Source of the DNA: Modestobacter sp. VKM Ac-2984
GTDB taxonomy: Bacteria > Actinomycetota > Actinomycetes > Mycobacteriales > Geodermatophilaceae
Assembly: GCF_026967985.1 (NCBI RefSeq)
Contig: NZ_JAPVBJ010000009.1
Location: forward strand, 124,001 to 188,000
Reading direction: 5' to 3'
Length of the DNA: 64,000 bases
Part shown: positions 34,955-64,000 of the stretch, piece after piece
How the letters are laid out: the number at the start of each line of letters is the position of its first letter
Position numbering within the stretch: the stretch's first letter is position 1
Position numbers and translations under genes: made by a program
The notes under the pieces: model-generated
The model's input: only the letters and a program-made list of their open reading frames with translations
Told to the model about the DNA's origin: nothing
Database searches by the model: none

Positions 34955-34957
34955 ACC

Positions 34958-45228: not shown

Positions 45229-45428
45229 CGCCATCCCCCGTCGCTCGACTGTCCGGGCAGCATGTCAGCGGACGAAGACGTTCCGTCAGAGCCAGGAGCA
45301 CCCGTGCCCCACCAGCACCGCCAGCCCCGGGAGGTTGGTCTGCGCCATGCGGCCGGCGGCGCCCCGCGCGACCTGCACGACATCGCGGCGCTCACGTGGC
45401 GGTCAGCCATCTGCTGACCGCCACTGGC

Positions 45429-45441: not shown

Positions 45442-46155
45442 ATGGGGCTGCTCGACCGACTGCTGGGCCGAACACGCGAAGACCGGACGACCTTGGCGCC
45501 GGTCGCTGTTCCTCCACCGCCGCCCCCGATGGTCGACCGGACCGCAGGTTCAAGGTCGACGCCGCAGCCCGCGGCAGCGTCGACGTTCCGTCAGCGCAGC
45601 GCGTCGGCTGCCGACATCGACGACGAGTCCAACCCCCGGTGGTACGCAGCCCCCGACGGCAACAACCAGCGGTTCATCGGTACCGACGGGCGCCCCACCG
45701 TGCACCTCATCCGGTACGACGGGGTGCTGCGGTTCTGCGAGGACAGCACCGGCCTGCTCGTCGGCCCGACCGATCGCCGCCTGCTGCCCGCGGGCCTGCT
45801 GGTCTCCAACCTGCGCGGCGGCCGGTACTACGAGGCTGACTGCCGCGCCGGGGACTTCTCCCCCGGCGCCACGGTGCGCCTGGTGCCCGAACCGGACAAC
45901 CCGCACGACGACCGGGCGGTGGCGGTCTTCGACCGCACCGGCCGGTACCGCGCCGGGTACGTCAACAAGATGAAGGCACGCGCCTACCTCAAGCGGCTGG
46001 CCGGCGGGGAGGAGCTGGTCGCGATCTCCCTGCGCGGCTCACGCCCCGGGGGCGACGCCGGCGTGGTGTCGATCCTGGCCGCAGCTCCGGACGTAATCGC
46101 CCACGTGCGTGCGTCTCGACCGGCCGGCTCACCACCGCCCACCTACACCCGGTAG
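45442..46155 (+). CDS. HIRAN-domain protein
   Basis: The 237-residue protein begins MGLLDRLLGRTREDR, strikingly like the N-terminus of the divergent exonuclease (MGFFDRFRKSK), has a Pro/Ser linker, a middle region (WYAAPDGNNQRFIGTDG), and a C-terminal HIRAN domain (about residues 118-200): NLRGGRYYEADCRAGDF, VRLVPEPDNPHDDRAVAVFD, GRYRAGYVNKMKARAYLKRL. HIRAN domains recognise 3' ends of single-stranded DNA in damaged or stalled structures. Placed back to back with a DnaQ-BRCT-Lsr2 nuclease, it probably works in the same DNA-repair or defence process. Confidence 0.8.
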   Translation: MGLLDRLLGRTREDRTTLAPVAVPPPPPPMVDRTAGSRSTPQPAAASTFRQRSASAADIDDESNPRWYAAPDGNNQRFIGTDGRPTVHLIRYDGVLRFCEDSTGLLVGPTDRRLLPAGLLVSNLRGGRYYEADCRAGDFSPGATVRLVPEPDNPHDDRAVAVFDRTGRYRAGYVNKMKARAYLKRLAGGEELVAISLRGSRPGGDAGVVSILAAAPDVIAHVRASRPAGSPPPTYTR

Positions 46156-49065: not shown

Positions 49066-49110
49066 CACTGTCAGACATCTTGATCTTGCGCACTGTCGGT
49101 GTCTTGGTCG
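49066..49110 (+). repeat. Candidate transposon left end (direct repeats)
   Basis: Two similar ~19-nt repeats with a 25-bp period: CACTGTCAGACATCTTGATC at 49066 and CACTGTCGGTGTCTTGGTCG at 49091. They lie ~240 bp before the first gene of the integrase operon, read TGTC at the outer side and fall just inside a decayed gene. Multiple short repeats at the ends are typical binding sites for TnsB/MuA-type integrases. No matching right end was found within the window. Confidence 0.45.
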
Positions 49111-49310
49111 AACATACGTTCGAACACCTGATAGACGACTGGGCGCTCCGACGCCCGGAACGAGCCGCGCTGTGCCGTTGGCCGTTTCGAGCACTTGGAC
49201 TCGGGGGGCCAACCGGTCGCGCATCAGGGATCGCTGTACCCGATCCACGGGAGCACGGTCCCGACCTGCTGCGCCAACCGGCAAGCACTCAACCGAGAGG
49301 ACCACCACAC

Positions 49311-49928
49311 GTGAACGCCGTCATCGACCGCCCCCCGGCGACCGGACCCACCCCGGCCACCGCCGCGCTTGCGCGGCCAGCCGGGGAGAAGGGCTACCGC
49401 GGATTTCACCAGGCGCTGAATGGCCGGTGCGAGCTCGCCCTCGCCGAGCACCTGGACACTCCAGCCGGTGGACCCGCGTGGGAGCGGGCCGCTGACGCAC
49501 TGGCACTGGCCGGCCGCATCGTCGCCACGCACGGCATGCCGGCCCGGCACGCCGCAACCCGCCAGCAGCTGGCTGCCTTCCTCGGCGTGTACGACCGCTT
49601 CTTCCGGCTGCCCGCCGGCTGGGAGCTGGACGCTGTTGCGCCGCTGGAGGCGCCGCTGACCTGGCGCAGCGCGGCCGGAGCGGTGTTGGTCGATGTGGTG
49701 CGCACCGCTCCGCCGAGTCACCCGCTGGCCGACGCCGACTCCTTCGCCCGCATTTCCCAGGCCACCGCCTGGGCGGAGCGCTGCGGGCTGCGGCTGGCCG
49801 GTGTTCGGCTGCTGGCGCTGTCGGCGCCGGCGACCTCGCTGCTGCACGACCCGGTCGGCGGGCTGGTGCCGCTGGCCGGCACCCGGTACGCCGGCGCGCT
49901 CGTGACTCCTGCCGGGGTGGCGGCGTGA
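49311..49928 (+). CDS. Unknown first protein of the Tn7/Mu-like operon
   Basis: The 205-residue protein starts VNAVIDRPPATGPTPATAAL, with helical KGYRGFHQALNGRCELALAEH and ARHAATRQQLAAFLGVYDRF, then alternating strands and helices: LTWRSAAGAVLVDVVRT, FARISQATAWAERCGLRLAGVRLLAL. The last part has the strand-helix-strand order of restriction-endonuclease-like folds, and its position before the integrase is where TnsA sits, but the catalytic E/D/ExK residues are not evident. I therefore do not call it TnsA. GAGAGG precedes GTG 49311; a GTGA overlap couples it to the integrase. Confidence 0.6.
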   Translation: MNAVIDRPPATGPTPATAALARPAGEKGYRGFHQALNGRCELALAEHLDTPAGGPAWERAADALALAGRIVATHGMPARHAATRQQLAAFLGVYDRFFRLPAGWELDAVAPLEAPLTWRSAAGAVLVDVVRTAPPSHPLADADSFARISQATAWAERCGLRLAGVRLLALSAPATSLLHDPVGGLVPLAGTRYAGALVTPAGVAA

Positions 49929-51634
49929 CCGCCGGCTGGCTGCGGCGTGCGGCGCTGGCCATCGCGGTCGCCGCGCAGCGGCCCGATGGCAGCGTGCCCG
50001 ACGAGGCGGTCCGGCGTGCCGCGGTCGCCGCCGGAGTGAGCCCTCGCCAGGTGCGCCGCTGGCTGACCGGTCACGCCGAGCACCTCACCGGCGGCGTGGC
50101 GGGGGTGGCCAACGTGCCCGACCCGGCACCCCGCACCGGCTGGCAGGTCAGCCCGCAAGTACTCGGCGTGGTGTCGGCGACGCACACCCTCAAGCAGGCC
50201 TGGCAGCAGCTGCGCGCCACCGACCCGACCACCCCCTCCTACCAGGCGTTCACCGCCGCGCTGCGCAACTACGACGACAACGGCATCGCCCGTGCGGTCA
50301 AGGGTGACGGGGCCAAGACCCTCATCGCCTCCCGCATGTACCTGAAGGTCGAGGTCGCCGAGCGCAACGCCGTCTGGGAGCTCGACAGCCAGGAGGTGCC
50401 GGTGTTCGTCATCCCGACCCGCGGCGCCAAGCCGGTGAAGCTGCACCAGACCACCGCCATCGAGTCCAAGCACCGGATGGTCATGGCCACCGTGTTCACC
50501 CCGGGTCCACCGCGCGCCGAGGACGTCGCCGCCTGCATCGCCCGCGGCGTGCTCGGCCGGCCCTACCTGCTGGACGGCCAGGAGGTGTGGGTCGGTGGCA
50601 TTCCCGACCAGATTGTGTGGGACAACGCCAAGGCCAACCTCGCCGAGCTGGTCACCGCACTGGTCGTGTCGCTGGCCACGATGGGGTCGGCCGTGACCCC
50701 GTACGCCGGCTGGGAGAAGGGCAAGATCGAGTCCTGGCACGGCATCAGCCAGAGCGAGTGCTACAGCACCATGCCCGGCTACGCCTACGGTCCGCAGTCC
50801 TTCACGGGGCACGCCTACTGGGGCAACCACACCAGCGGGACGGCACTGCTGGGCGAAGACCTGCTCATCAGCCAGGCCGAGCGGTGGGCGCTGGAGGAGT
50901 ACAACACCGCCCGCGTGCACGGAGCTCTGAACACCACTCCGCTGCGCTCCTGGGCCGCCGACACCAACCAGCTGCGACAGGCCACCATCGAGCAGCTGAT
51001 GCCGGCGATGCTGTCCACGCAGCATCTCCGCACGGTCAACAAGAACGGCGTCCGCTTCCAGGGCGTTGACTACGTCGCCGCCGGGCTCAACCGGCTCGTC
51101 GGCCGCAAGGTCACGGTCCGCTACCTGCCCAACATGGAACTGGAGCGCCAGTTCATCGAGGTGTTCAGCGGCGACGAGTGGGTGTGCACCGCCTACCCCT
51201 CGGCCACCCTCACCCCCGCGCAGCGGACCGCGCTGCTGGTCGAGCGCCGCCGGCAGTACGAGCAGCTGCGGGAGGCCGAACGCGACGGGGCGCGGATGCG
51301 CCGCGCCGTCGCCGAGCGGGCGAAGGCCACCGGCGGGGCCGAGACCACCTACGGGCAGAACGCCGCCGAGTACGCCCGCGACGACCTGGCCGCCAACCTC
51401 GATGACCTGTTCGACGCACCGTCCGACGACCTGAGTGCCGACCTCGATGCCATGTTCAGCGCTGACTCCGTCGTCGCCGAAGTCGCCGAGTCCTCCACAG
51501 ACCTCAGCTCGAGGCCCGGGGACCTGGCCGACGAGCTGGACGACGAACTGGACGACGAACTGGCCGACGAGCTCGGCTATGAGTTCGCCCGCGACCTGGA
51601 CGACGGCCTCAGCAGCGGGCCGGTGGCGCCGTGA
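49925..51634 (+). CDS. DDE integrase/transposase, TnsB/MuA-like
   Basis: The 569-residue protein has an N-terminal HTH (AVRRAAVAAGVSPRQVRRWL), an RNase H-like integrase core with D154 (AVWELDSQEV), D233 (IVWDNAKANL) and E269 (GWEKGKIESWHG), an exact D,D(35)E spacing, and a Mu-type C-terminal beta-barrel (NGVRFQGVDYVAAGLNRLVG, KVTVRYLPN). The last ~90 residues are acidic with EL/DD repeats (ADELDDELDDELADELG), as in regions contacting an AAA ATPase. It should catalyse strand transfer of the element. It is coupled to genes on both sides by 4-bp overlaps. Confidence 0.87.
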   Translation: MTAGWLRRAALAIAVAAQRPDGSVPDEAVRRAAVAAGVSPRQVRRWLTGHAEHLTGGVAGVANVPDPAPRTGWQVSPQVLGVVSATHTLKQAWQQLRATDPTTPSYQAFTAALRNYDDNGIARAVKGDGAKTLIASRMYLKVEVAERNAVWELDSQEVPVFVIPTRGAKPVKLHQTTAIESKHRMVMATVFTPGPPRAEDVAACIARGVLGRPYLLDGQEVWVGGIPDQIVWDNAKANLAELVTALVVSLATMGSAVTPYAGWEKGKIESWHGISQSECYSTMPGYAYGPQSFTGHAYWGNHTSGTALLGEDLLISQAERWALEEYNTARVHGALNTTPLRSWAADTNQLRQATIEQLMPAMLSTQHLRTVNKNGVRFQGVDYVAAGLNRLVGRKVTVRYLPNMELERQFIEVFSGDEWVCTAYPSATLTPAQRTALLVERRRQYEQLREAERDGARMRRAVAERAKATGGAETTYGQNAAEYARDDLAANLDDLFDAPSDDLSADLDAMFSADSVVAEVAESSTDLSSRPGDLADELDDELDDELADELGYEFARDLDDGLSSGPVAP

Positions 51635-52407
51635 ACAGCAAGCACCTGCGCGGCCTCACCGGCGGCGCAGACGTGCCGACCACCGCCTACAACCGGGCGA
51701 TGCTCGTGCTGCGGCGCGCGGCCAGCGACAACGACCTCGCCGCGCTGCTGGGCGAGGCCGGGACCGGCAAGACGTTCTGCGCGCTGTCCTTCCTTGAGGG
51801 CATGACTGCCGCGGGCCGGCTCGCGGTCTACCTGCAGCCCGAACCGACCGCCACGCACACGCAGATGACGACCCGGCTGCTGCAGAAGCTCACCGGCGGC
51901 CGCCCGACCGGCGAGTCCTACTACCGCACCGACGACCTGGCCGAGCTGCTCACCGAGCACTCGCCGGTCATCGTCGTCGACGAGGCCCACCGCGCCCAGG
52001 CCCGCGGACTGGACCAGCTCATCTACCTGAAGGAAACCGCTCCGGAGTGGACGCTCGTCCTCGTCGGCAGCGAGCTGCCGGCCGCGGCCGCCCGGGTCCC
52101 CGGTGTCCGCAGCCGGCTGCGCGGCCGCACCGCCGCCTTCGACGTGCTCACCGGCGCGGAGCTGCTGAAGACGCTGCAGGCGTGGCATCCGCTGCTGCGC
52201 GGAGCCGACCCCCAGCTGCTGCAGCGCATCGACGCCCGCTACTGCGCCGGCCGGTTCCGGAGCTGGGCGCAGCTGATGCGCGCAGCCGAGAACGCCAACG
52301 ACGAGCTGGGCGCCCGCGGCAAGCCCACCCACTCCACGCTCACCACCCGCCTACTCGGCAGCGCGGTCGTGCTCGCTGGCTTCGACGCCTGGGAGGTCCC
52401 GGCATGA
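51631..52407 (+). CDS. AAA ATPase, TnsC/MuB/TniB-like
   Basis: The 258-residue protein has a Walker A GEAGTGKT (residues 41-48), Walker B VIVVDEAHRAQ (113-118) and a sensor-type VLVGSELPAAA; the arginine-rich RVPGVRSRLRGRT follows. Size and order match transposition ATPases that form filaments on target DNA and activate the integrase. It directly follows the integrase (GTGA overlap), as in tnsB-tnsC and tniA-tniB, and overlaps the next gene by 4 bp (ATGA). Confidence 0.87.
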   Translation: MNSKHLRGLTGGADVPTTAYNRAMLVLRRAASDNDLAALLGEAGTGKTFCALSFLEGMTAAGRLAVYLQPEPTATHTQMTTRLLQKLTGGRPTGESYYRTDDLAELLTEHSPVIVVDEAHRAQARGLDQLIYLKETAPEWTLVLVGSELPAAAARVPGVRSRLRGRTAAFDVLTGAELLKTLQAWHPLLRGADPQLLQRIDARYCAGRFRSWAQLMRAAENANDELGARGKPTHSTLTTRLLGSAVVLAGFDAWEVPA

Positions 52408-54612
52408 CCACCGCCCTCATCCAGCCGGTGCCGGCGAGCGCACCGCCCGCCGGGTTCACGGTGCTGCACGTGGCCAACGATGACGACGTCGTGCTGCGGC
52501 CGGCATCGGCCAACGACCCCGATCATGGGCGCATCGCGGTGCGGGTGCGACCCGGCCTGCGCCGCACCGACTGGCTCACCCGCGACCTGCTCGCCGCACT
52601 CGGCGTCGACTTCACCGTCACCGGCGCCGGCCGCAACGGCGATGAGAACCTGCAGCTACTGCCGGTCCGGCTGGTCGCCGGCCGCATCACCGACGTGCTG
52701 GTCGCCGGCGCCGAGTCCCTGACCCACAGCACCCTCACCGACCTGGTGCTGCTGGCCGCCGCCGCCCGCGCCCGGCTGTGGCTGGTCACCGCTCCCCCGG
52801 TCACCGAGACCGTCACCACCACCCTGGGCGACTGGTGCGCCGCCGAGGTGACCGTCGCCGACACCGCAGCGGCGTGGCCCGGCCTGCTGGAAGACCCCAA
52901 CAGCCCTCCAGACGACCCGGCCGCCGAACAGGTACCCGCTCCCTCCGCCAGCGCCGTCGAGCCGCGGCAGCTGCCACTGGTCGACGCCACCACCCTGCTG
53001 GCCGCCAGCCGCCGGCTGCTCACCCCACCGGAGGCGACCTGGGTGCACCGACGACTGGCCGCCGCCGTCACCGACGCCGGTGACCAGCTCGACGCCGCCA
53101 CCGACCCGGGCGACCTCACCGGAATCCTCGCCACCTGGCTGCTGGCCCGCTACGACGTCGCCGGCACCCTCACCCAGTTCCTCTGCGACGTCCGCGGCCT
53201 GCAGGTCGCCGGCCTGTGGCGTGGCCTGCTCATCCAGGTCGACGTCCCCGCTCTCCTGGGCACCGCCTCCGCGGCCCCGTCGGCGACCGCCCGCACGCCC
53301 GAGGTGTGGCAGCGGCTGCGGGCCTACCGGCTGCCGGTCCGGGCCGCGGCGTGCGCGCTGGCCGCGGCCCGCCTCGGGTCGGCTGCCATCTGCGCGCTCA
53401 CCGTCGCCGACGTCGTACTCGACGGAACCACCGTCACCACCGGCGGCTCTACCGTGACGATCGAGCCTGACGCTGCCTGCTACCTCGCCGAGCAGCGGCT
53501 GCTGCGCTTGGCCTCCGGCGCTCCACCTGACGCACCGCTGCTGACGACCAGCGTCGGCACCCAGCTGTCGGACAAGGGCCTGGCCCGGCTGCTCTCGGAG
53601 GCGCGGACCGAGCTCGGTGTCGTGGTCACCAGCCGGCTGGTGGAGCGGCAGGCTCCCGACGGTGCGACGACGCTGCGCCGCTGGGGCGTGACCGTCACCG
53701 CCCTCGGCACGCCGGTGCCAGGCACACCAGACACCACACCGGGCGTCATGACACCGGCCGCACGTGCGACCACCGTGGACTCCCGAACGGCCGCGGCGGC
53801 GCCGCTGCTGGACGTCGACCTGCTCCGCCGGCGGAAGATGGAACTGCGACTGTCCCGCCACGACATCGCCAAGCGCCTGGGTGTCACCACCGCCGTCGTC
53901 GGCCGGCTGGAGTCCGGCGCCAACCACGCCGAACAGCCCCTGGGCCTGCTGCTGCGGCTCGCCGGGCTGCTCGGGCTCGACCTCGCCGACCTGCTCCCCC
54001 GCCACCGGGCGCAGGCCACACCGCCGACCGTCCCGGCCGGTCAGACCACCGGGCTCGGCACCAGCGACGAGGGCGCCGAGGACGTGCGGCTGGTCGGCGC
54101 TGCGCTGCACGCGCTCGGCGTGCTGGTGCCGACCGAGACCCTCGCCGACGTGCTGGGCTGGACCGCCGAGCGGCTGGCCGCCGCCATCGACGGCCTGGCA
54201 CTGACCGCGCCGGCGGCCGGATTGCGGGTGCACCGGCTGCAGAACCGCGTGTCGCTCATCCGGGCCGCCGACGCACTGCCTGCCGAGGCCCTGGCCGCCG
54301 TGCTGCGCTACGACGCCGCTCGCACCGGGCTGGCACCTCACCCAGGCGCGGTTGGTGCACGCCGCCCTCACCCGCGCCGTCGCACCTCCCTCCGGTCGCG
54401 GCGGGCACCACCTGCTCGCCCGCTCCAACGCCGACAAGGTCGCCGCCGGGTCCCTCGCCGGCGCCGGCATCCTCACCAGCGACGACGTCGGCGACCTGCG
54501 CCTGACCGACGACGCCGCGGTGTCCCTCCTCGTGCCCGCCCCGACCCGTGCGGAGCCAGCCGTTCCCGCCGACGCCCACGCCGCGCTCGACCCTTCGCAG
54601 GAGGACCAGTGA
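52404..54612 (+). CDS. Large XRE-HTH / recombinase-like accessory protein, frameshifted
   Basis: With one frameshift corrected the product has about 735 residues. Residues 1-130 are alpha/beta (RIAVRVRPGLRRTDWLTRDL). Residues ~305-430 resemble a tyrosine-recombinase core without clear catalytic residues (ARLGSAAICALTVADVVLDG). Residues ~475-535 are a Cro/CI HTH (RRRKMELRLSRHDIAKRLGV, TAVVGRLESGAN). The end is winged-helix-like (LVHAALTRAVAPPSGRG, LLARSNADKVAAGSLAGAGI). At 54336 an extra C shifts the frame; uncorrected, the frame runs on through Arg-rich nonsense and continues, in the frame of the next gene, to 55754. By position it could be the target-selection factor (TniQ/TnsD role); inference. 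Confidence 0.6.
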
Positions 54613-55754
54613 CCACCACCTCGCCCGGCCAGCCCGGACCAGACGCACCGGACGCCGCAGCCGTAGGCCCCGGCGTAGAGGAGGCCGGCCGCCTGCGCGC
54701 TGAGCTGACCGCCGTCCGCGCCGAGCGGGACGACCTCGCCCGCCGCTTGGCCGAGGCGCTCGGTGAACATCGCACGGCCGCCGGGGCCGGGCAGCTGCCG
54801 TTGCCCGGGCTGACCGTCCCATTACCGCCTGTCCGCATCGACCTGCCGTTGGACGTGCAGTCCACCTCCGAGCGGGACCTGCCGTGGGCGTTCGCCGACG
54901 AGGCCCGGGACTTCGCTCAGGTACGACCGGGGGCCTACCTGCTGGCCGGTGACGAGGCTGAGCCGGTGCTCGTCCAGGTCGTCGAGGTCACCAGCGACGG
55001 CCGGGTGCATGTTCGGATCGTCGGCCCAGGCCCGTTCATCCCCGCCGACCTGAACTTCGAGGCCGCGGAGCCGGGCACCGTGTGGGCGCGGGTGCCTACA
55101 GCGGGCGCGCCGGCGGTTGGTGCGGTGGTGCTAGCCGGGTCGCCGGCCGCCTGGTCGTGGGTCCGTGTCGCATCCGTCGAGGACGGGTGGCTGCTCCTGC
55201 GGCGGCAGGCCGGACCCGCGCTGCGATCGGCCCGCGACGACCGGTTCGTCAACGTCACCGGCGTCGAGCTGGCCGGCGGGTACACCCTGCGCCTGACCTG
55301 GGCCGACGGTGCGGTGACCGTCGTCGACGTCGAGCCCTACCTGTGGGGCGACGTCGGCGCTCCACTCCGGGACCCCGAGCTGTTCGCCACCGTCATCGTC
55401 GACCCCGAGGCCGGCACCGTCGTCTGGCCGGCCACCGGCCTGGACATCTCCCCGGTCGAGCTGCGCCGGGTCGGCCGACCGGTGACGGACGTGGCTCCGC
55501 CGGGACTGCGCACGGCCACCCGCGACCAGGTGCTCGCCGCCGGCCCGCGGCTACTGCACCTGGCCGACATGCACGGACTGACCGACCCGGGCGTCGACGA
55601 GCTCGGCGACCTAGTCGTCACGCTGACGGCCGGCGAGGCCGGCTACCAGGCGCTGCGGACGTTCGCCGCGGCTGCTGCGGACGCGGTGGGCGCCTGGGTG
55701 AACGTTGTCGCTGCTGACGCCCCGGGCGCAGCGACGGCCACGACACCGTTGTGA
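54609..55754 (+). CDS. DUF2442-domain protein, last gene of integrase operon
   Basis: The 381-residue protein has a disordered N-terminus and a coiled coil (EEAGRLRAELTAVRAERDDLARRL cut to about residues 25-55), a beta-rich middle (WAFADEARDFAQVRPGAYLL, VLVQVVEVTSDGRVHVRIVG), and a DUF2442 domain at about residues 220-290 (GYTLRLTWADGAVTVVDVEP, DPELFATVIVDPEAGTVVW, GLDISPVEL). DUF2442 is a small beta domain often linked with toxin-antitoxin or mobile-element genes. GTG 54609 overlaps the preceding stop by 4 bp. The C-terminus is helical. Function in transposition unknown. Confidence 0.75.
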   Translation: MTTTSPGQPGPDAPDAAAVGPGVEEAGRLRAELTAVRAERDDLARRLAEALGEHRTAAGAGQLPLPGLTVPLPPVRIDLPLDVQSTSERDLPWAFADEARDFAQVRPGAYLLAGDEAEPVLVQVVEVTSDGRVHVRIVGPGPFIPADLNFEAAEPGTVWARVPTAGAPAVGAVVLAGSPAAWSWVRVASVEDGWLLLRRQAGPALRSARDDRFVNVTGVELAGGYTLRLTWADGAVTVVDVEPYLWGDVGAPLRDPELFATVIVDPEAGTVVWPATGLDISPVELRRVGRPVTDVAPPGLRTATRDQVLAAGPRLLHLADMHGLTDPGVDELGDLVVTLTAGEAGYQALRTFAAAAADAVGAWVNVVAADAPGAATATTPL

Positions 55755-55773
55755 CCGCCCAGCGACACCGAGA

Positions 55774-56043
55774 TCAGTTGAGCTGGCTTCCCGCGTCGGT
55801 CTCGTCGGTGAGCCGGGGGGCTCCCGTGCCTCTTCGACGTATGCCACGTCGGTCGAGGATGTTGCGGATCGCACTGAAGCTGCGATCTGTCTCCTCGGCC
55901 AGGACGCGCAGACTCGCCCCGGCCTGGTACCGCTCAACGATGTAGGCCTCCACTCGCTGCTGCAGCAGCGGGTCAGGGCGAGGACTGGCGGAACCCCGGA
56001 GCTCCGGCCGAACCCCCGCTTCTGGACGGGGCGGGTACGGCAC
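55774..56043 (-). CDS. Small helix-turn-helix protein
   Basis: The 89-residue product has QQRVEAYIVERYQAGASLRV and LAEETDRSFSAIRNILDRRG followed by IRRRGTGAPRL, the short HTH repeated in many actinobacterial helix-turn-helix domain proteins (RAGASIRxLAxxTGRSYxxV). GTG 56043 lies 6 nt after TACCGT (complement of 56050-56055), so the transcript is probably leaderless; the longer frame overlaps the neighbouring gene. It is likely a regulator, perhaps of the facing operon. Confidence 0.65.
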   Translation of the reverse strand: MPYPPRPEAGVRPELRGSASPRPDPLLQQRVEAYIVERYQAGASLRVLAEETDRSFSAIRNILDRRGIRRRGTGAPRLTDETDAGSQLN

Positions 56044-56105
56044 GAGCCGACGGTAGCGAGGTGCCCCACGCTGCGCGTCCCCCAGGGAGGTGACGCGCAG
56101 TGACC

Positions 56106-56570
56106 TCAGCTGGCGACGCCGCCCTCGCGGGCATCCGGGCCGAGCTTGCCCCCATGGGGCAGCGCGACCGGGCCCCCGTCGGGCCGGACCAGCGGGATCC
56201 CGCAGTCGGCGCAGATGATCCATGCGCCTGCGTCTTCTCCCTCGGTGTGCGCGCCGCGGGTCTGGCACGCAGCGGCGAGCCGGTCCATCTCCTCGTTGTG
56301 GCTGACCATCATGGCGACCATCTCGTCAGCGACGATGAAGTAGCCCTCGTCGCGCCGCTGCCACATGCCGGCGGCTTCCAGTTCCAGCGCGGTGACGCTG
56401 GTCTCGGCGCTGATTGCGTTGAGGTAGTCGTCGCTGACGAAGCCAGGGTGACCGGCCTGGATGCTGTTCAGCGCGGCGAAGCTGTGCAGCTGGAAGGCCG
56501 ACCTGCTGAGCACGGGAAGCCCATCGAAGTGCAGGAACGTACGGCTGCCGTCGTCGTCTGACTCGCTCAC
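56106..56570 (-). CDS. Hypothetical protein with C-terminal zinc-ribbon-like end
   Basis: The 154-residue product starts VSESDDDGSRTFLHFDGLPV and has a helical DNA-binding-like domain (SDDYLNAISAETSVTALELE, MWQRRDEGYFIVADEMVAMM), then an acidic linker and WIICADCGIPLVRPDGGP with one CxxC pair near the end. The N-terminal part resembles small phage or plasmid proteins with an embedded winged helix, but I cannot name a family. GTG 56570 is 7 nt after TAGGAT, suggesting a leaderless transcript. Confidence 0.6.
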   Translation of the reverse strand: MSESDDDGSRTFLHFDGLPVLSRSAFQLHSFAALNSIQAGHPGFVSDDYLNAISAETSVTALELEAAGMWQRRDEGYFIVADEMVAMMVSHNEEMDRLAAACQTRGAHTEGEDAGAWIICADCGIPLVRPDGGPVALPHGGKLGPDAREGGVAS

Positions 56571-56619
56571 GGGCCGCATCCTAGGATCCAGCGCGCGACA
56601 GGGCAGGGCTCCCGGTGGG

Positions 56620-57951
56620 TCAGGCGAGCCAGGCTCCGTCAGGGGCCATGCGCGTGGCCAGTCCGCGCCCGGCGTCCGAGAACGGGGTGTGCCAGGCAAC
56701 CTCCGACACTGCGACGTCAGCGTCTGTGGCAATGGCCCGGACCAGCTCCTGGGCAACACCGCGGCGGCGCCAGATGCCCGCTGTGAAGATCACGTTCACG
56801 GTCGGGCGCAGCTGACCGTCGGTTGGCTGGACCACCCCCTCTGACGTCTCCATGGGCCGCGGGTACCACCGGGCGTGCGCGGTGTCGAAGACCGAGACGA
56901 AGCCGACCACCCGCCTGCCAGACCGGTACAGGTAGGCCCGCGCGTTGTCCTCAGCAGGCTCACCGTCACCGACGGCGAACGAGGGGAAGTCGTAGTGGTT
57001 CTCCCGCCTTGGCAGCAGCGCGCACCCGTAGGCCAGCTTGCGCCACCCGACCGGTGACGTGGCGTTGACCACGGCGATGTGTCCGCCGTACCAGGTCAGG
57101 TTGCGCGGGATCAGCACCCCGGTCGACCACCGCATGTGACCCTGCAGGTGGCCGGCGTTGTTGTCGTCGGTCTCCGCTCCGGGGAAGCCGCACGGGCACT
57201 GCTCAGAACTCAGTGACGCCGACTGTGGCTGCAGGAACACGACCGGAGTCGCGTCCCGGGACGGCCGCTCCGACCTTGCGCCGACGTAGGGCCTCAGCGG
57301 CCCGCCATCATCGTCGGCAGGTTGTGCGTACAAGGCTGGGTCGGGGTAGTGGCCGAACCGGTCGGGATAGCGGTCCCGAAGCTCCGCGGCTTCCGGCGGC
57401 ATCGTGGGGTGCACCCACACCGCACCGGGTTCAGCGCGGCCGTTGAGCCGAAGACCTCTCGCTCGCGCTCTCGCCCGTAGGAACTGCAGGAACGCTGACG
57501 GCGCGGACGTGAAGTCGACACCTTGGCGCAGCTGCCGCTCGCCCGGCTGCAACCACTCGTCCAGTGGCACGGTCACGGCCTCGGTCAGCGCCTCGAGCCC
57601 GGTTAAGTCGCCGTCCATCTCGGCCGCGCGCAGCGCCTCCGCAGCCTGGTCGGCCAGCGGGAACGGCACGGACATGGAGATGGTCCCAGGGCCCGGCGAG
57701 TGGACGAAGCCGCCGGCGTAGCCGTGCACCCACAGGTAGTCCGACGCGGCGTCGACGCACTTCTTCACCGCGTCCGCGAACCCCGGCCGCAGCTCTGCCT
57801 CGGCACCCCGCCCCTGCTGGCGGGCCGTGTAGACGTAGTTGTCGCGGTCCAGGGTCACCCTGGTGAAGAAGCGGCCCGGTTCGACGTCGATGCGCCGCGC
57901 GGTGCGGTGACCGCCGCTGGCCGTCGGGTCCAGCCAGATGCGTGTGCTCAT
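56620..57951 (-). CDS. Zinc-finger GNAT protein resembling ESCO/Eco1 acetyltransferases
   Basis: The 443-residue protein has an unknown N-terminal half (MSTRIWLDPTASGGHR ... WVHPTMPPEAAELRDRYPDR). From about residue 255 it shows SSEQCPCGFPGAETDDNN-type CxC, then HLQGH, a CC-HH zinc finger, followed by VGWRKLAYGCALLPRRENHY, a strand RAYLYRSGRRVVGFVSVF, the acetyl-CoA loop region IFTAGIWRRRGVAQELVRAI and the end AWHTPFSDAGRGLATRMA. Finger-then-GNAT order and the FSD...G..LAT ending are the hallmarks of eukaryotic cohesin acetyltransferases (ESCO). It lies 136 bp after jetD on the same strand. The family similarity is my reading of motifs; activity is unproved. Confidence 0.65.
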   Translation of the reverse strand: MSTRIWLDPTASGGHRTARRIDVEPGRFFTRVTLDRDNYVYTARQQGRGAEAELRPGFADAVKKCVDAASDYLWVHGYAGGFVHSPGPGTISMSVPFPLADQAAEALRAAEMDGDLTGLEALTEAVTVPLDEWLQPGERQLRQGVDFTSAPSAFLQFLRARARARGLRLNGRAEPGAVWVHPTMPPEAAELRDRYPDRFGHYPDPALYAQPADDDGGPLRPYVGARSERPSRDATPVVFLQPQSASLSSEQCPCGFPGAETDDNNAGHLQGHMRWSTGVLIPRNLTWYGGHIAVVNATSPVGWRKLAYGCALLPRRENHYDFPSFAVGDGEPAEDNARAYLYRSGRRVVGFVSVFDTAHARWYPRPMETSEGVVQPTDGQLRPTVNVIFTAGIWRRRGVAQELVRAIATDADVAVSEVAWHTPFSDAGRGLATRMAPDGAWLA

Positions 57952-58087
57952 CGGGAGTTCCGCCGTGGTCCGGCGGGCCGGGCAAAGACGGCGACGGGTG
58001 GGCGGTCACTCACGTCTGGACATGGTGCCCGCCGGCGGGGCGCCGGTGAAGGTCGGCCACGGGCGCGCCAACTGCCGGCGGGTGGCA

Positions 58088-59263
58088 TCACCCCACGGAT
58101 CGGGGCGCAGGCAGCGCCACCCGGTGCACGTGCTCAAGCGCCACGCCCAGCGGGATGCGTTCCTGCTCGATTCGGCGGTGCCGGGTCCAGCCCGGTGAGG
58201 CGAGCTGCTCGTACAGCAGCCGTTCGGGTTCGGTCAGGTGCGGCACCGGTCGTGGTGGGCGCGGCCCCAGCGGTTTGCCGTTCTTGTCCACGTTGGTGCC
58301 GTAGGGCTCCCAGGCGTCGTAGGTGGCCGGGTCCATGAGGATCGACGCGGCGGGCACCCCGGCGGCACGGAACCCGTCGAGGATCTCCAGGCCGTCGGCG
58401 TCCATGTCGCCCCAGTAGATGACGCGCGGCGCCCCGGTGATCCAGTCGAAACTCGCCGCGGTCCGGCCACCGCGACCCACACCCTCCACCGACACCCCTC
58501 CCGGCACCGGCGAGAAGTGGATGGCGGTGTCCTTGTTCTCCGAGATGACCACCACCTGCGGCCGGTACGGCAGCTGCATCTTGTCTCCGACCGTCGCGGA
58601 GTCGTGCACGCGGCCGCCAGCGGCCCGGTACGCCGGGTCGAGGTAGGTGAAGTGGATGCGGGCCGGGTGGTCGGGCAGGAGCCCGAGCTCGTCGACGCCG
58701 GCGAGCTCACGGACCAGCGCCTGCCGGGTGTTGAGCCACTTGGCGTGCATGCCGGCGATGGGCACCTGCCGGGGCGTGAACCCGGTCGCATCGTTGTGGG
58801 CGAACCAGTCCGCGGCGCGGCACAGCAGGTCGAAGTCGACGTCGGAGAGCTTGTCGACCGCGGTGAGCGTGCTGGCCGGTGCGAGCAGATGGGGGTAGCG
58901 GCCGGTGAGGACCGCGGCCCGGGAGCGGGCCCGGTCGAGCCTGGCCGGCCACGGCCCGGCGCACAGCCGCGCGGCGGTGTCCAGGTCGGGGACCGTCAGG
59001 TGCGTGGGCAGCTGCTGCGGCGTGCCGGAAACACGGCGGCCGCGGTAGGCCACCTCCAGGCCGTGCTGCGCCGCCCAGCTGCGCCAGCTGTCCACCAGCC
59101 GCATCGTCGTGGTGAAGTCGGCGGCCAGCTCAACCGAGGTCGGCTCACCGATGGGGAACGGGTGCGGCCAGGCCGGTGCGTCCTCGGTTCCGGTGAGGGC
59201 ACCGGCCCAGGACTTCCCCAGCCGCCGGTCGATGTCGGCCAGGAGCTGCTGAGGGCTCTTCAC
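58088..59263 (-). CDS. jetD: Wadjet JetD nuclease (DUF3322/DUF2220)
   Basis: The 391-residue protein has an N-terminal DUF3322 arm domain and a C-terminal DUF2220 TOPRIM-like nuclease: VVVISENKDTAIHFSPVPGG supplies the catalytic Glu and VIYWGDMDADGLEILDGFRA the DxD. In type I Wadjet systems JetD cleaves small circular DNA captured by the JetABC SMC complex and so excludes plasmids. Its start overlaps the jetC stop by 4 bp, and it is the last gene in the conserved jetABCD order. Confidence 0.9.
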   Translation of the reverse strand: MKSPQQLLADIDRRLGKSWAGALTGTEDAPAWPHPFPIGEPTSVELAADFTTTMRLVDSWRSWAAQHGLEVAYRGRRVSGTPQQLPTHLTVPDLDTAARLCAGPWPARLDRARSRAAVLTGRYPHLLAPASTLTAVDKLSDVDFDLLCRAADWFAHNDATGFTPRQVPIAGMHAKWLNTRQALVRELAGVDELGLLPDHPARIHFTYLDPAYRAAGGRVHDSATVGDKMQLPYRPQVVVISENKDTAIHFSPVPGGVSVEGVGRGGRTAASFDWITGAPRVIYWGDMDADGLEILDGFRAAGVPAASILMDPATYDAWEPYGTNVDKNGKPLGPRPPRPVPHLTEPERLLYEQLASPGWTRHRRIEQERIPLGVALEHVHRVALPAPRSVG

Positions 59264-62200
59264 GACTGGTCGCCGGGGGCGTCCTCGACGCGGTCGACGA
59301 AGGCGTACCCGGTCGCGGTGTTCTTGGTGATGGCCAGGAAGTCGTCCATGTGCGGCTCCAGCGCGGTGACCTTGTCCAGCGGCGCCCCGACGATGAGCTG
59401 GAAGCCAAGACCCTTCCAGGCTTGCACAGCACGGCCGGCGAACTCGGCGTCGGCCTTCACGAAGCCCTCATCGAGGAACACCGGGGCGAACCGGGGACGG
59501 GCGCGCAGCTCATCGCCGAGGCGGAACCGCAACGCGGCGCCGACGATGAACGCGACCAGCTCCTGGCTCTCCCCACCGCTCTTGCCGCCGAGGGCGGAGT
59601 GCACGCTCTGCACCTGCCCGGCGTCGTTGTACCGCTCGGCGGTGATGTCCACATGGCGGCGCACGTCCAGCAGCCTGTCTCGGTCAGACAGCTCTGCGGT
59701 GGCCCGCGGGTCCTCCCGGCGCCGGATCTGGGCCATGAACTGCTGCAGCTCGGCGAACCGGCGTTCCATCTGGGCGTCGTCGAGGCCGGCGGTGGCCACC
59801 GAGGACAGCTGCGCCAGGTCTCGACGGAACTGGGTGACGTGCTCAGGGGTCAGGCGCCGCAGCTTGATGCGCAGCCGATCCTGGCCGGCGCCGAAGGGCA
59901 GCGTGGCCAGGATGTCGTTGATCGGGGCGAGCCGGTCCTCGATCTCCTCCACCGCGGCGCGCATCGCGCCGTTGAGCGGCACCAGGTCCTGACCGCTCCA
60001 CAGCGTGAGGCGCCGGCGCCACTCCTCGCGGCGGGCGTGCAGGCCGGTGGTGATGATGTTGTCCAGCACGCGGGCGTAGTCGGGGTAGGACTCCGCGGTG
60101 ATGCCGAAGTTGGGGTCGGGCCAGCTGTGTTGGTAGGAGATGAAGATCCGCCCGAGCTCTGCCGCGGTGCGCTCGGCGTCTTGACGTGCACCGTCGACGG
60201 CGTCGTTGAGCCGGCGGTACAGCCGGGCCATGTTCTTGGTGAAGTCCGTCAGGTTGGCCGGGTCACCCGGCGCGGCGGCCGCGGCGAACTCCTTGTCCAG
60301 CCGGGTGGTCTGCTCATCACCGAGGACGACCCGATGCTCGTCGTCGATCCGGATGAGCTCGACGGTGACCTCGTCCTGCCGTTCGGCGAGTTCACCATGG
60401 CGGGCGTCGAGGTCCTTCTTGCTGGCCTGCAACGCGAACCGCTGCTGCTGGGCGGTCTCCAGGCGGGCCTTGAGTGCCTTGATGTGCGCTTCGATGGCGC
60501 GCAGCCGGTCGTCGGACTCCAGGATGGTGCGGCGGTTGCTCTCCAGCTCCGCGATGCGCGCCTCGACGCCGGCGACGTCGATGTCCTCCCAGCGGGCGGC
60601 CTGCACCGCCTCGTATGCCAGCTGCCTACGCCCGAGGCCGGCGAGCTTCTGGTCCACCTCCGCCCGCCGCTGGTCGAGCTCGTGTAGCTGCGTGGTGAGC
60701 TTCCGCAGCTGGGCGTCGATGTCTTCGATTGCGTCGGCGTTGGAGAACCCGATGACGTTGGCGGTGTCGTTGCGGCCATGGCTGCCTCGGCTGCCCGAGC
60801 GGGTCTGCCCGGCGCGGGTGACCCGGTAGCCGTCGCCGGCGAGGTCGGCTGCGGTTTCCACGCACAGCGCGTTGCGGGCCGGCTCGGACACGTGCCGGGT
60901 GACCCAGCCGCTGAAAGGGTGGTCGGCGTACAGCAGCTTTCCCGCCACGCGCGCCCGGTCGCTGCTGGGCGTGTGCGGCAGGTGGGAGGGGACGCCCTCG
61001 AACTGCAAGCGTCCGCGCAGGTGCAGCGGGTCGATCGCTGCCGAGAAGTGCCCCAGCCGCTCACGGGGCACCAACAGCAGCCGGGCGCTGGCGCCCAGGA
61101 CGGTCTCGATGGCGGTGCGCCACCGGTCATCCTCGGCGGCCACGTCGATGAGCTCAGCGAGGAACGGCAGCTCACTGGGGTCCATACCGGCCGCCGCGGC
61201 GACCTGCCGGCGCATCTCGTCCAGTGCTCGGGGGACGCGGCCGGCCCGGCCGGCGAAGGAGTCCCGGTCAGCGGTCAGCTGGGCCTTGCGCTCAGACAGC
61301 GGGAACTGCTCGCGCATCAGGTCATCACGCTGCTTCTGCTCCCGCGCCTGTCTACCGGTGAACGTGCCCAGGAAGGCGTCGGCGTCTGCGCGCAGCCGGT
61401 CGAAGTCCTCCCGGGTGGCCAGCGGCGCGGCCAGCGCGGTCGTCCGCTCCGCGAGGGTGGCCCGGCGGGCCAGCCGGTCCTCGCGCAGCCGCTGCTTGTC
61501 CTCGATCTCGCGGGCAAGCCGCGCCAGGTCGTCCCCACCGTTGCGGCGGTGCTCCTCCTGGGCCACTTCGAGCTCGCCGGTGAGACCCTGCTCGGCCTCG
61601 CGGGCGCCGCGCAGCCGGTCGGTGTTCAGCTGCCGCGCCGTCCCGTTGGCGTCCACGGCGTCGGTCAGCAGCGTGGCCTCGGTGCGCAGGCTCCACAGCT
61701 TGACCGGGGTGTCTCCGGGGTGCGTCAGGCCGAAGGTGTCGATCGTCTCCACCTCGGCGCGGGCGGTGAGCAGCCGCTGGTGCAGGTCGGTGATCGGGGT
61801 CAGCAGCGTGGCCTTGTCCTGCTCGGTCTGCATGGCCAGGTAGGCGGCTTCGAGGTCGTCAAAGTGCTCGATGGCGCGGTCGGCGGCGGCGTAGGTGGCC
61901 GGCCGCTCGAGAACCATCTCCTTGTACAGCTCATCGACGGTCTTGATCTGCTGCCCGGACTGGATGCGCACCAGCAGGCGCAGCGCCTTCTCCCCGTCGC
62001 CGTTGGCACCGATGCCCAGCTTCGTGTGCAGGGTGGTGGCGAACGCGGCGTAGCTGTCGTGGGTCTTCAGCCCCGGGAAGGCGGCCTTGAGCGCCTTGGG
62101 CACGAAATGCTGGTCACCGGCGCCGATGTGCTCGGCCAGGTCGGCGAAGTCGAGCACGCCGTCGTAGGTGGCCATCCGCATCGTCACCTGACCGCTGACC

Positions 62201-62733
62201 TGACGTGCTCGGGCGGGCACGTAGTAGACGCGGAACGCGGTGAACCGCCGGCCGTGGTCGTCGATGAACGTCATCCCGATTGCGCCCCACGTGGCGGTGC
62301 GCTCTCCGCGCAGCACCTTGGCCGTCTCCCGGCCATCGGCGTCCGCGGTGGTGTCGGTCTGCCCCCGCAGGTAGCTGAGCAGGTTGCGCTGGTCGGCGCT
62401 GCGGGCGCGCCCACCGACAGCGTCGTTGGACGCGCCGTTGAAGGAGGTGTCCGAGGGCATCATCAGCGCGATGTAGGCGTCCAGCAGCGTGCTCTTGCCG
62501 GTGCCCGATGCGCCGGAGATGAGGGTCGCGCCGGGGTGGAAGTCGAACCGGACGCGACCTTCGAACCCACCCCAGTTGACCAGCTGGAAGGTCTCGGCCT
62601 TCCACTGCGTGGTGCCCTCGGTGGCGCCGTCGACGTGGAACAGCAGTCCGGCGTCGGCCACCAGGCCGTCGGATGCCGGCCCGACGGGACGTGGTGCGGG
62701 GGCGAGCAGATCGCCGAGTTCACTGGTGGTCAT
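59260..62733 (-). CDS. jetC: Wadjet JetC, MukB-like SMC ATPase
   Basis: The 1157-residue protein has the Walker A GASGTGKS at residues 74-81, long coiled coils (about 290-450 and 640-860) flanking a hinge-like middle domain (about 460-640), the ABC signature SGGES at 1052-1056 (GGKSGGESQELVAFIVGAAL) and Walker B FAPVFLDEGFVKAD at about 1082-1095. This is the architecture of MksB/EptC/JetC, which extrudes DNA loops. ATG 62733 starts 4 nt after the jetB stop. Length is normal for JetC. Confidence 0.93.
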   Translation of the reverse strand: MTTSELGDLLAPAPRPVGPASDGLVADAGLLFHVDGATEGTTQWKAETFQLVNWGGFEGRVRFDFHPGATLISGASGTGKSTLLDAYIALMMPSDTSFNGASNDAVGGRARSADQRNLLSYLRGQTDTTADADGRETAKVLRGERTATWGAIGMTFIDDHGRRFTAFRVYYVPARARQVSGQVTMRMATYDGVLDFADLAEHIGAGDQHFVPKALKAAFPGLKTHDSYAAFATTLHTKLGIGANGDGEKALRLLVRIQSGQQIKTVDELYKEMVLERPATYAAADRAIEHFDDLEAAYLAMQTEQDKATLLTPITDLHQRLLTARAEVETIDTFGLTHPGDTPVKLWSLRTEATLLTDAVDANGTARQLNTDRLRGAREAEQGLTGELEVAQEEHRRNGGDDLARLAREIEDKQRLREDRLARRATLAERTTALAAPLATREDFDRLRADADAFLGTFTGRQAREQKQRDDLMREQFPLSERKAQLTADRDSFAGRAGRVPRALDEMRRQVAAAAGMDPSELPFLAELIDVAAEDDRWRTAIETVLGASARLLLVPRERLGHFSAAIDPLHLRGRLQFEGVPSHLPHTPSSDRARVAGKLLYADHPFSGWVTRHVSEPARNALCVETAADLAGDGYRVTRAGQTRSGSRGSHGRNDTANVIGFSNADAIEDIDAQLRKLTTQLHELDQRRAEVDQKLAGLGRRQLAYEAVQAARWEDIDVAGVEARIAELESNRRTILESDDRLRAIEAHIKALKARLETAQQQRFALQASKKDLDARHGELAERQDEVTVELIRIDDEHRVVLGDEQTTRLDKEFAAAAAPGDPANLTDFTKNMARLYRRLNDAVDGARQDAERTAAELGRIFISYQHSWPDPNFGITAESYPDYARVLDNIITTGLHARREEWRRRLTLWSGQDLVPLNGAMRAAVEEIEDRLAPINDILATLPFGAGQDRLRIKLRRLTPEHVTQFRRDLAQLSSVATAGLDDAQMERRFAELQQFMAQIRRREDPRATAELSDRDRLLDVRRHVDITAERYNDAGQVQSVHSALGGKSGGESQELVAFIVGAALRFRLGDELRARPRFAPVFLDEGFVKADAEFAGRAVQAWKGLGFQLIVGAPLDKVTALEPHMDDFLAITKNTATGYAFVDRVEDAPGDQS

Positions 62734-62737
62734 CGGG

Positions 62738-63580
62738 TCAGCTCTCGTTCTCGTCGGCCGCGACGCCGCCGGGCTCGGCGGACGTGTCGGCACCGGCACC
62801 GGTCCCGGTGTCGGTGTTGGTCGAGCCGTTGTGCTCGCGCAGCCACGTCAGCAGGTGCTGCAGCTTGAACATCGGCAGCAGCACCTCGATGGCGTTGCTG
62901 ACCTCGAACCGGTCGGCGTCGCTGCGGCCGACGAGCAGGCCTGCGCTGTAGAGGGTGTCGATGGCCCTGGCGGCGCGGCGGGCGTCACCGGCCTGGTCGG
63001 TGGCGTGCGCGGGCCGGTGCTGAGCGACGTACTCGAGCATGTCGAGGCGGTCGACGAACACCCGGTCGGCGCCGGCGGCCTGCTCGCTACGGAACCGGGT
63101 TCGGAGGAACACCAGCAGGATGGTGTCCTCCCTGCCCCAGGGCGCGTCGTAGAGCAGCGTGGGGAATGGTCGGCCGCCACCTTCGGGGCTCACCTGCCGC
63201 TTGTAGGCGATCTCCCGCTCACGGTCCAGGTGCAGCTCGAGGAACTGGTCGTTGAGCCGGGCCCGGATGGGGCGCGGATTGCGGGTCAGCGCCTGCCACT
63301 CCTTGGGATGGGTCCGCCCGCTGATGAACCGCTGTTTGAGCAGCACGACCAGTGCCTTGCGCTGGTCCAGTTCCAGACCGCCCTCATCGCCCTCGAACAG
63401 CGAGACGCTCGCGGTGCTCTCCCGCTCCGGGTCCTCGACGTCCAGCTCGTCGAGGCCCGGGGTCTCCCCGCCGGGCGCCTCGAGGCGATCGAAGCCGCCC
63501 CCGCGCGCATCGTCCCGGTAGCTGTCGTCGATCGAGACGTCGTCCGGGGCGATGTCGGCGGGCTGGTCGAAGTCGTTCAT
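62738..63580 (-). CDS. jetB: Wadjet JetB (DUF4194, kleisin-partner KITE-like)
   Basis: The 280-residue protein has an acidic disordered N-terminus (SIDDSYRDDARGGGFDRLEA), a DUF4194 domain (RKALVVLLKQRFISGRTHPK, YKRQVSPEGGGRPFPTLLYD, WGREDTILLVFLRTRFRSEQ, LDMLEYVAQHRP), and a Thr/Gly-rich tail. JetB corresponds to MukE/MksE, the winged-helix dimer that binds the kleisin JetA and DNA. ATGA overlap with jetA at its start; 4 nt to jetC at its end. Confidence 0.9.
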   Translation of the reverse strand: MNDFDQPADIAPDDVSIDDSYRDDARGGGFDRLEAPGGETPGLDELDVEDPERESTASVSLFEGDEGGLELDQRKALVVLLKQRFISGRTHPKEWQALTRNPRPIRARLNDQFLELHLDREREIAYKRQVSPEGGGRPFPTLLYDAPWGREDTILLVFLRTRFRSEQAAGADRVFVDRLDMLEYVAQHRPAHATDQAGDARRAARAIDTLYSAGLLVGRSDADRFEVSNAIEVLLPMFKLQHLLTWLREHNGSTNTDTGTGAGADTSAEPGGVAADENES

Positions 63581-64000
63581 CGGAGCTCCTGCGTCCCGGG
63601 CCGGTCGGCCGGAGTGTGGTCGTGGCTGACGTCGGTGTCGGGGTTGTCGGCGGTACCGGGGTCGGGTGTGGCACGTCCGTCGGGGTGCGGTGCCACGCGG
63701 GGCACCGCGAGCTGGCGAGTGGTCCCGTCGGGCCGGATGGTCCGGTAGGTCTCCACCAGCTCGTCGCGATCCATGCCGGGTAGGTTGGTCGCCAGGTGCA
63801 GCAACCCGAAGATCTCCACCGGGCGTCGCAGCGCCGGGTCCAGGCCGTCGAACATCGCACCCAGCGAGGTGAGCGGATCCGGCCCGGTGAGCGCCTGGGT
63901 CAGCTCCTGGCGCAGCGCGTCCAGCGACGGACCGCCCTGGGCCAGCAGGTCGGTCAGCGACACCCCGTCGGGTCGGTGCTCGCTGACGTCAGCCAGTGGC
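63577..64000 (-). CDS. jetA: Wadjet JetA (DUF3375 kleisin), C-terminal part
   Basis: Only the last ~140 residues lie in the window; the frame is open to the right edge. It contains LADVSEHRPDG, then SLTDLLAQGGPSLDALRQEL, FDGLDPALRRPVEIFGLLHL and MDRDELVETYRTIRPDG, consistent with the C-terminal winged-helix region of the kleisin JetA (MukF/MksF counterpart) that contacts the SMC head. It is assigned mainly by its conserved place directly before jetB, with an ATGA overlap. The Asp/Pro/Thr-rich tail is probably disordered. Confidence 0.82.
   Translation of the reverse strand, partial: PLADVSEHRPDGVSLTDLLAQGGPSLDALRQELTQALTGPDPLTSLGAMFDGLDPALRRPVEIFGLLHLATNLPGMDRDELVETYRTIRPDGTTRQLAVPRVAPHPDGRATPDPGTADNPDTDVSHDHTPADRPGTQELR

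Follow-up and report, generated by a model that had tools for sequence, protein, structure and literature searches.

Tn7 inserts through the TnsABCD pathway, in one orientation, at the 3' end of a conserved gene, glmS. It has a DDE transposase with a Mu-type C-terminal domain, an AAA regulator and TnsA, its ends bear 22-bp transposase sites, and 5 bp of the target are duplicated. Here we analysed a 64,000-nucleotide stretch of the genome of Modestobacter sp. VKM Ac-2984 (genome G000, contig C21, positions 124001–188000; the window), and coordinates above 64000 continue the window numbering on the contig extended to the right. An element of 34,857 bp (34872–69728) beginning in the window resembles Tn7 in each of these features, including a TnsA-like protein. 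Unlike Tn7, it has no recognisable TniQ/TnsD, its target is the stop codon of nrdJ itself, a LexA box precedes its operon, and the TnsA residues are apparently lost in this branch. From the sequence comparisons, it is quite probable that the element is a Tn7-like transposon inserted at the nrdJ stop codon, that it carries a complete type I Wadjet system and other defence-like genes, and that it moves by the mechanism proposed below.

In Tn7, the target is selected by TnsD or TnsE (PMC8649781). According to the accessible part of a survey of Tn7-like elements (Benler et al., 2021; PMC8649781), JetD occurs in 34 elements of Proteobacteria and Actinobacteria, TniQ/TnsD is found in 73–97% of the elements per clade, and one actinobacteria-dominated TnsB clade is not experimentally characterised. 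The same part links TnsA loss to replicative transposition, and states that active-site mutations of TnsA abolish cut-and-paste but not replicative transposition. The present element is like the surveyed elements in its defence cargo including Wadjet, and the occurrence of Wadjet in Tn7-like elements is thus already published there. The survey, as its accessible part describes it, used Pfam models of TnsA–E and TniQ, plus models derived from CRISPR-associated transposons. The element described here shows no Pfam TnsC/TniB match and no TniQ, so that elements of the nrdJ type may have been missed by that survey. A second related system is Tn6022. According to the accessible part of its description (Faure et al., 2023; PMC10293859), TnsF is an inactivated tyrosine recombinase with N-terminal zinc fingers that selects comM together with TniQ. 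Among the matches listed in our literature search, which left most subscription papers and all preprints outside, nrdJ was not found as an insertion site of a Tn7-like element or other transposon, and the term "ribonucleotide reductase" is absent from the main text of both papers (PMC8649781; PMC10293859).

The boundaries of the element were determined by extension of the contig and comparison with relatives. Four close elements were available, in G000, G010 (taken as Modestobacter excelsi 1G6, NZ_SJEX01000029.1, of the same genus as G000), G068 and G516. The left end is known in the first three; that of G516 lies outside the analysed stretch, and its right end is the same as in the other close elements. 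Similarity of G000 to G010 and G068 covers the operon and resumes at about 68.8 kb, continuing rightward into nrdJ. The counterpart elements measure 29,195 bp (G010) and 23,201 bp (G068), and the ends and the duplication are common to the three. Their left ends begin with TGGCGAGGCT preceded by TCAGC, and the right end is the mirror image followed by TCAGC. This 5-bp target-site duplication (TSD) flanks both sides in all three elements with a known left end. The right copy (69729–69733) lies past the window and holds the nrdJ stop codon. The terminal inverted repeat (TIR) motif TGGCGAGGCTYG occurs once per strand within 103 kb. Directly after the nrdJ stop, on the nrdJ strand, sites are spaced by 22 bp (GGCTCGCCGGGATGTCC, ATTCTCGCGGAATGTCC and GGCTCGTCCAAATGTCA). 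A weight matrix built from 11 right-end sites of four genomes, including these three, located the plus-strand site at 34878 in G000 and its counterparts in G010 and G068, at ranks 4, 6 and 4 among the matches listed. Arrays of about 22-bp transposase sites, as at the ends of Tn7, are present in the G000 element and at the nrdJ junctions of relatives. Left ends of distant elements were looked for in the analysed stretches and none was found. Subterminal palindromes near both ends are the same within an element and different between elements (TATCAAG/CTTGATA in G000, TTGCCAAG/CTTGGCAA in G068), which fits putative binding sites evolving with their protein. The protein of the left-end gene shows identities to the G010 protein of 79% (G000) and 45% (G068). 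At the other end, past the window, an XRE gene (68819–69529) is present in all four close elements, and in the close family a terminator-like hairpin, recognised by eye (69562–69600), is located some 130 bp inward from the right end.

The gene at the right junction, nrdJ, encodes a B12-dependent ribonucleotide reductase (Pfam) and ends at 69729. The duplicated sequence reads GCTGA on the nrdJ strand and includes the TGA stop, so that nrdJ stays intact. To approach the state before insertion, the left flanks were read outward from TCAGC and compared with the sequence that follows the nrdJ stop (at most 600 bp) in 92 genomes of the family. The G068 left flank matches the post-nrdJ sequence of G523 (89% over 74 columns, with a terminator-like hairpin), that of G000 matches G030 (79% over 160 columns) and also G524, G511, G536 and G512, and that of G010 matches G005 (95% over 291 columns). 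The G010 flank has about 44 bp fewer near the junction, so that its site array is shorter there. In each case the element sits between nrdJ and sequence formerly after nrdJ. These three different prior states indicate that the elements of G000, G010 and G068 are probably three separate insertions at the same nucleotide. The older neighbour in G000 and G010 reads like the end of an earlier element, which suggests that elements stack at this site. To the left of the G000 element, 24730–34866 comprises about 10 kb of genes, redox-related by eye, and closes with an apparent right end of another element type; no module genes were found in this region. A census covered 93 nrdJ junctions, one of which has no visible stop. 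TG follows the stop immediately in 35 of 92 junctions. Periodic repeats follow it, at z ≥ 4, in 14 of the 92 genomes, whereas control windows placed 150, 300, 450 and 600 bp beyond gave 0, 1, 1 and 1 of 92, respectively. By eye, the ends fall into at least six types.

A first-pass annotation of this DNA, made from the sequence alone, had proposed a coupled plus-strand operon with a DD35E integrase bearing a Mu-type domain and a TnsC/MuB-like ATPase. The operon is real (five genes, A–E, 49311–55754), and both assignments held. Gene B matches Mu-transpos_C (E 3.5e-9) and the PHROG transposase family phrog_310 (148 bits), and D154, D233 and E269, in DD35E spacing, are invariant in three homologues. 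The best PDB matches of B are TnsB, at a weak E of 0.21. These results indicate a DDE transposase of the TnsB type. Gene C, which adjoins it, matches Pfam AAA_22 and the PHROG "DNA transposition protein" family phrog_296 (67 bits), as a TnsC-type AAA ATPase would; no Pfam TniB/TnsC model is among the 16 matches of the whole Pfam scan at E ≤ 1, and the sole PDB match of C at E ≤ 0.1 is an IMP dehydrogenase (E 0.052). B and C thus resemble MuA and MuB in matching phage transposase and DNA transposition families. Unlike phage Mu, the element is inserted site-specifically and carries defence cargo; no systematic search was made for phage structural genes.

Gene A was aligned among the close and six distant elements (G511, G512 and G513:C192 were left out). 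GRVDL...DE[IL]K, which we take to be the PD-(D/E)xK pattern, is present in all six distant elements, and DE[IL]K is absent in all four close ones. According to this motif, gene A of the close elements seems to encode a TnsA-like protein without catalytic residues, and hence without the active nuclease, which is dispensable in parts of the Tn7-like family. No solved relative was found in the PDB search. Gene E is a DUF2442 gene present in only two of the four close elements (G000 and G010), and it is therefore outside the conserved module. At the C-terminus, its product and the right-end XRE protein are alike (38% over about 78 aa).

The module was then followed in the 112 genomes of the family set, in 95 of which nrdJ was located. 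B homologues occur in 15 genomes at 18 places, with B of G516 counted twice. Profiles of A, B, C, D1 and D2 (the last two being the parts of gene D) were run on 14 stretches, and A-B-C-D1-D2 was found in one order and orientation in 12 elements with variable cargo. Eleven of them lie beside nrdJ (G000, G010, G068, G516, G500, G041, G509, G512, G511, G513:C79 and G066), with B on the nrdJ contig, 3–18 kb from the nrdJ end. This corresponds to site-specific, one-orientation insertion by a conserved gene, as in Tn7-like elements. The twelfth, G513:C192, is on a contig without nrdJ. TCAGC adjoins its right end, and next comes an apparent left end of another nrdJ-type element; G513:C192 has probably been pushed from nrdJ by a later insertion. 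The G021 stretch ends within D1. In G516 (L073), B and D are each split over two reading frames, by decay or sequencing error. No B relative was found on viral contigs. Among plasmids, 586 records hold B relatives, all below 60% identity. Two plasmids were inspected: Pseudonocardia plasmid pLS2-2 (L076) carries B, C and a weak D1-like protein adjoining a MobF relaxase, and a Streptomyces plasmid carries B and C only. Related modules may thus travel on mobilizable plasmids.

Gene D is the candidate for target selection. D1 (about 470 aa) and D2 (a helix-turn-helix family, HTH_3, followed by a C-terminal domain) are fused as D in the close family, and are read as two genes in G500, G041, G513 and G066. 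The first-pass annotation had listed an XRE/recombinase-like protein and a DUF2442 protein in place of a recognisable TniQ. TniQ is indeed not detected by hmmscan against Pfam in C, D, D1, D2 or E (C, D and E at E ≤ 1), and no TniQ/TnsD target selector was recognised. A search for TniQ in whole genomes gave no match in 12 genomes, but its positive control gave none either, so that this search cannot show absence. The frame of gene D is interrupted in the G000 assembly near 54330. The DUF2442 part did not hold for the conserved module. D1 is conserved across element types (26–31% identity to the first row of the alignment) with no invariant cysteine. It has no significant Pfam family and no convincing PDB relative (best E 0.09). 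The D1 profile was compared by hhalign with four tyrosine recombinases of G000; six of eight loci were tried, and two without the frame-picking motif were dropped. The match is weak (P 0.0021, probability 13%) and runs collinearly through the core-binding region into the beginning of the catalytic domain, and two control profiles gave P of 0.33 and 0.49. D1 is possibly derived from a tyrosine recombinase, a relationship for which this comparison is suggestive only. D1 may then be a recombinase-derived selector analogous to TnsF of Tn6022 (PMC10293859). Unlike TnsF, it has no invariant cysteine and no TniQ partner, and is fused to or followed by D2; zinc-finger families were absent from the Pfam scans of D, D1 and D2. 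In a class-wide search with D, nine of 394 genomes matched at E ≤ 0.001, its own included. The best other match is G164 (E 2.4e-12), and the remainder are mostly short and over the HTH region.

It is unlikely, and yet deserves the most weight among the alternatives, that the target is chosen by C, B or a host factor and not by D. The link of D to DNA has neither structure nor assay behind it, and no solved structure matches D1 at an E below 0.09, as this alternative would allow. However, D1 and D2 are the only further genes of the module, D2 of the close family has its HTH_3 match, and in Tn7 the role is filled by TnsD or TnsE (PMC8649781).

Upstream of the operon lies a LexA (SOS) box. The pattern TCGAACN4GTTCGA has seven sites in the genome and no control matches. 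A second box, at 74384, is upstream of lexA (74618–75445; Pfam LexA), about 5 kb from the nrdJ end. The exact box is found upstream of the operon in all four close elements and also in G509, and its position in the promoter region suggests that the operon belongs to the SOS regulon. A gene cluster is formed by nrdJ, an nrdR-like gene (by eye) and lexA (69729–75445; L004 6730–12446), and some 5 kb separate the attachment site from lexA. The conserved box would also fit an operon that has been domesticated for SOS-induced repair or defence, with transposition lost, as would the lost TnsA-like residues, the interrupted D of G000 and the two-frame B and D of G516. We regard this as improbable. The three elements with known left ends have different left flanks, intact TSDs and matched ends, D is a single open frame in G010 and G068, and the cargo differs per element.

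The minus-strand jetABCD block reported by the first-pass annotation is a complete type I Wadjet system: JetA1, JetB1, JetC1 and JetD1 are adjacent with strong PADLOC matches, and JetA1 extends past the window. The system is an ordinary type I Wadjet with all four genes, and the vehicle alone is unusual. The central suggestion of that annotation, a location of the Wadjet genes within a Tn7/Mu-like element, is supported, since the inverted ends and the TSD enclose the jet genes. Its span of 49066–64000 was replaced by the ends given above. In relatives without this element, the nrdJ junction is unoccupied or otherwise occupied. The jetC gene occurs at 22 places in 21 of the 112 genomes, and only in G000 and G512 does it lie within 20 kb of nrdJ on the nrdJ contig; both carry the module at this locus. 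The closest jetC homologues, of 71% (G509) and 42% (G537) identity, are on contigs other than that of nrdJ, at a distance from nrdJ that cannot be measured. The other places show 27–29% identity and, where nrdJ shares the contig, are at least 98 kb away, except in G512 (12 kb).

The cargo differs in each element scanned, the scan covering part of the cargo. That of G000 comprises Wadjet I, a PDC-M36A-like protein and PDC-S48. G010 carries Wadjet III (L018 11706–19467; JetA3 565 bits, JetC3 1253, JetD3 341, with an unrecognised gene in the place of jetB), a DRT-type reverse transcriptase and a kinase-like defence protein. G068 carries an oligonucleotide cyclase of the CBASS type (273 bits), and G512 carries JetA1 and JetB1 as well as, 12 kb from nrdJ, a jetC relative of low identity (27%). 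We infer that Wadjet is exchangeable cargo of nrdJ-site elements. The island might instead have been moved by a site-specific recombinase or by homologous recombination at nrdJ, with the transposase operon as a passenger. The operon does lie mid-element in G000, tyrosine recombinases are present elsewhere in the genome, and stacked ends at nrdJ could recombine together. This is quite improbable, as the module is constant and the cargo variable, the ends are of the Tn7 type with 22-bp-spaced sites and a 5-bp TSD, and none of the eight Phage_integrase matches of the genome is on contig C21. Least credible of all is a start of the element at the TGTC repeats (49066): although the similarity of G010 to the G000 operon region begins at 49081, so that the operon block resembles a unit, the repeats are missing in G010, the DNA to their left is within the same TSD-bounded element and holds DnaQ and DUF6308 genes that recur in sister elements, and it is contradicted by the TIR and TSD found at 34872 and likewise in G010 and G068. 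The TGTC repeats of the first-pass annotation do exist (ACTGTC at 49067 and 49092), but they are not an end, and the conserved feature beside them is the LexA box (49108–49123). Direct repeats of the att type, GATCTTGCG, had also been considered as ends, and were dropped once the inverted ends were known.

The Tn7-like transposon proposed here would work as follows. DNA damage would lift LexA repression of the operon. D, acting as D1 and D2 in place of TniQ/TnsD, would recognise the conserved 3' end of nrdJ and recruit the ATPase C, which would bring in B, the transposase attached to the 22-bp sites. Insertion by a 5-bp staggered cut at GCTGA would recreate the nrdJ stop codon, and the hairpin inside the right end would replace the displaced nrdJ terminator. 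As gene A seems to lack nuclease residues, transposition in the close branch is probably replicative, with cointegrates that host recombination would resolve. At nrdJ, different elements would stack and so build a defence island. A wider reading, on which we are nearly evenly divided with a slight lean to doubt, is that of a TniQ-free Tn7-like branch. In it, a two-part selector (D1 as an inactivated recombinase, D2 as the HTH part) would read the nrdJ end and rebuild the stop codon. One lineage would be induced by DNA damage and, without TnsA catalysis, would copy itself, with SOS-induced RecA resolving the products. Many element types would stack at the same codon into exchangeable defence islands beside lexA-nrdR-nrdJ.

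Several results weigh against the proposed transposon and its mechanism. Movement is deduced from sequence, and no transposition was observed. D is frame-interrupted in G000, and this copy of the element may therefore be immobile. The assignment of D as target selector is deductive as well, the AlphaFold2 (AF2) model of D has a predicted local distance difference test (pLDDT) score of 31, and the resemblance of D1 to tyrosine recombinases is weak. The TnsA assignment of gene A is based on an alignment of low-identity groups; Foldseek on its AF2 model (pLDDT 50.6) gave no match at E ≤ 0.001, with nuclease folds as the top matches. The LexA box is missing in seven of the eight distant stretches scanned. 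In the module count, sequences that entered a profile necessarily match that profile (G511, G512 and G513:C192 entered none), G003 holds B only, and the count left out B relatives not near nrdJ (G508, G058 and G500:C4) and those of other families (G086 and G088). The first periodicity run gave 16 of 92 genomes, including G003, which was unconvincing by eye. The test also misses the close family itself (z of 2.9, 3.6, 3.2 and 0.7), and thus undercounts.

The features are collected in Table 1. The first-pass annotation had listed a zinc-finger GNAT protein; the GNAT match is present below the Pfam cut-off, and no zinc-finger family was matched. At 40280–41155, a protein with a run of about 30 prolines is predicted. 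No tRNA was found in the 64-kb window, and no Rfam family reached the gathering score there.

Table 1. Features of the nrdJ-site element and its left flank, in window coordinates
Feature	Coordinates	Strand	Remarks
Left flank	34716–34866	.	Resembles a right end of another type of Tn7-like element, such as follows nrdJ in G030, G511, G512; then TCAGC
Left TSD copy, TCAGC	34867–34871	.	Identical in G000, G010, G068
Left end	34872–34957	+	TGGCGAGGCTTG terminal repeat; TnsB-type site 34878; subterminal palindrome TATCAAG..CTTGATA (34928/34947)
Left-end gene	34958–35350	+	3' end approximate, start by eye; present in 3 of 3 elements with known left end
DUF6308 protein	36308–37165	+	E 9.6e-27; common to G068, G516 elements (82%)
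DnaQ-type exonuclease with Lsr2 DNA-binding domain	43567–45234	-	PADLOC candidate PDC-S48; common to G010
HIRAN-domain protein	45442–46155	+	
TGTC direct repeats	49066–49098	+	Not conserved in G010; not an end
LexA (SOS) box	49108–49123	.	TCGAACATACGTTCGA; upstream of operon
Gene A, TnsA-like	49311–49928	+	205 aa; PD-(D/E)xK residues apparently lost; alignment, weak fold evidence
Gene B, TnsB/MuA-like DDE transposase	49925–51634	+	569 aa; Mu-transpos_C, PHROG
Gene C, TnsC/MuB-like AAA ATPase	51631–52407	+	258 aa; AAA_22, PHROG
Gene D, fusion D1 + D2	52404–54612	+	Frame interrupted near 54330
Gene E, DUF2442 protein	54609–55754	+	Accessory
Small protein	55774–56268	-	Common to G010
Small protein	56106–56759	-	No significant family
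GNAT-like protein	56620–57951	-	Weak, E 0.013, below Pfam cut-off
jetD (type I Wadjet)	58088–59263	-	
jetC (type I, MukB-like)	59260–62799	-	
jetB (type I, MukE-like)	62738–63580	-	
jetA (type I, DUF3375)	63577–65142	-	JetA1, 591 bits; crosses window end at 64000

How targets are selected is a central question in the study of Tn7-like elements and of the gene-insertion tools made from them. A module found in 12 elements without a recognisable TniQ offers a direct test of whether another protein can do the job of TniQ. The locus also suggests a route to defence islands, in which different elements insert precisely at nrdJ time after time, each adding other defence genes and leaving nrdJ unbroken. 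Geodermatophilaceae are known for radiation and desiccation survival. UV-C resistance is mentioned in the accessible part of one paper (PMC3035280). Given a functional SOS box, elements of the close family would be mobilised by DNA damage.

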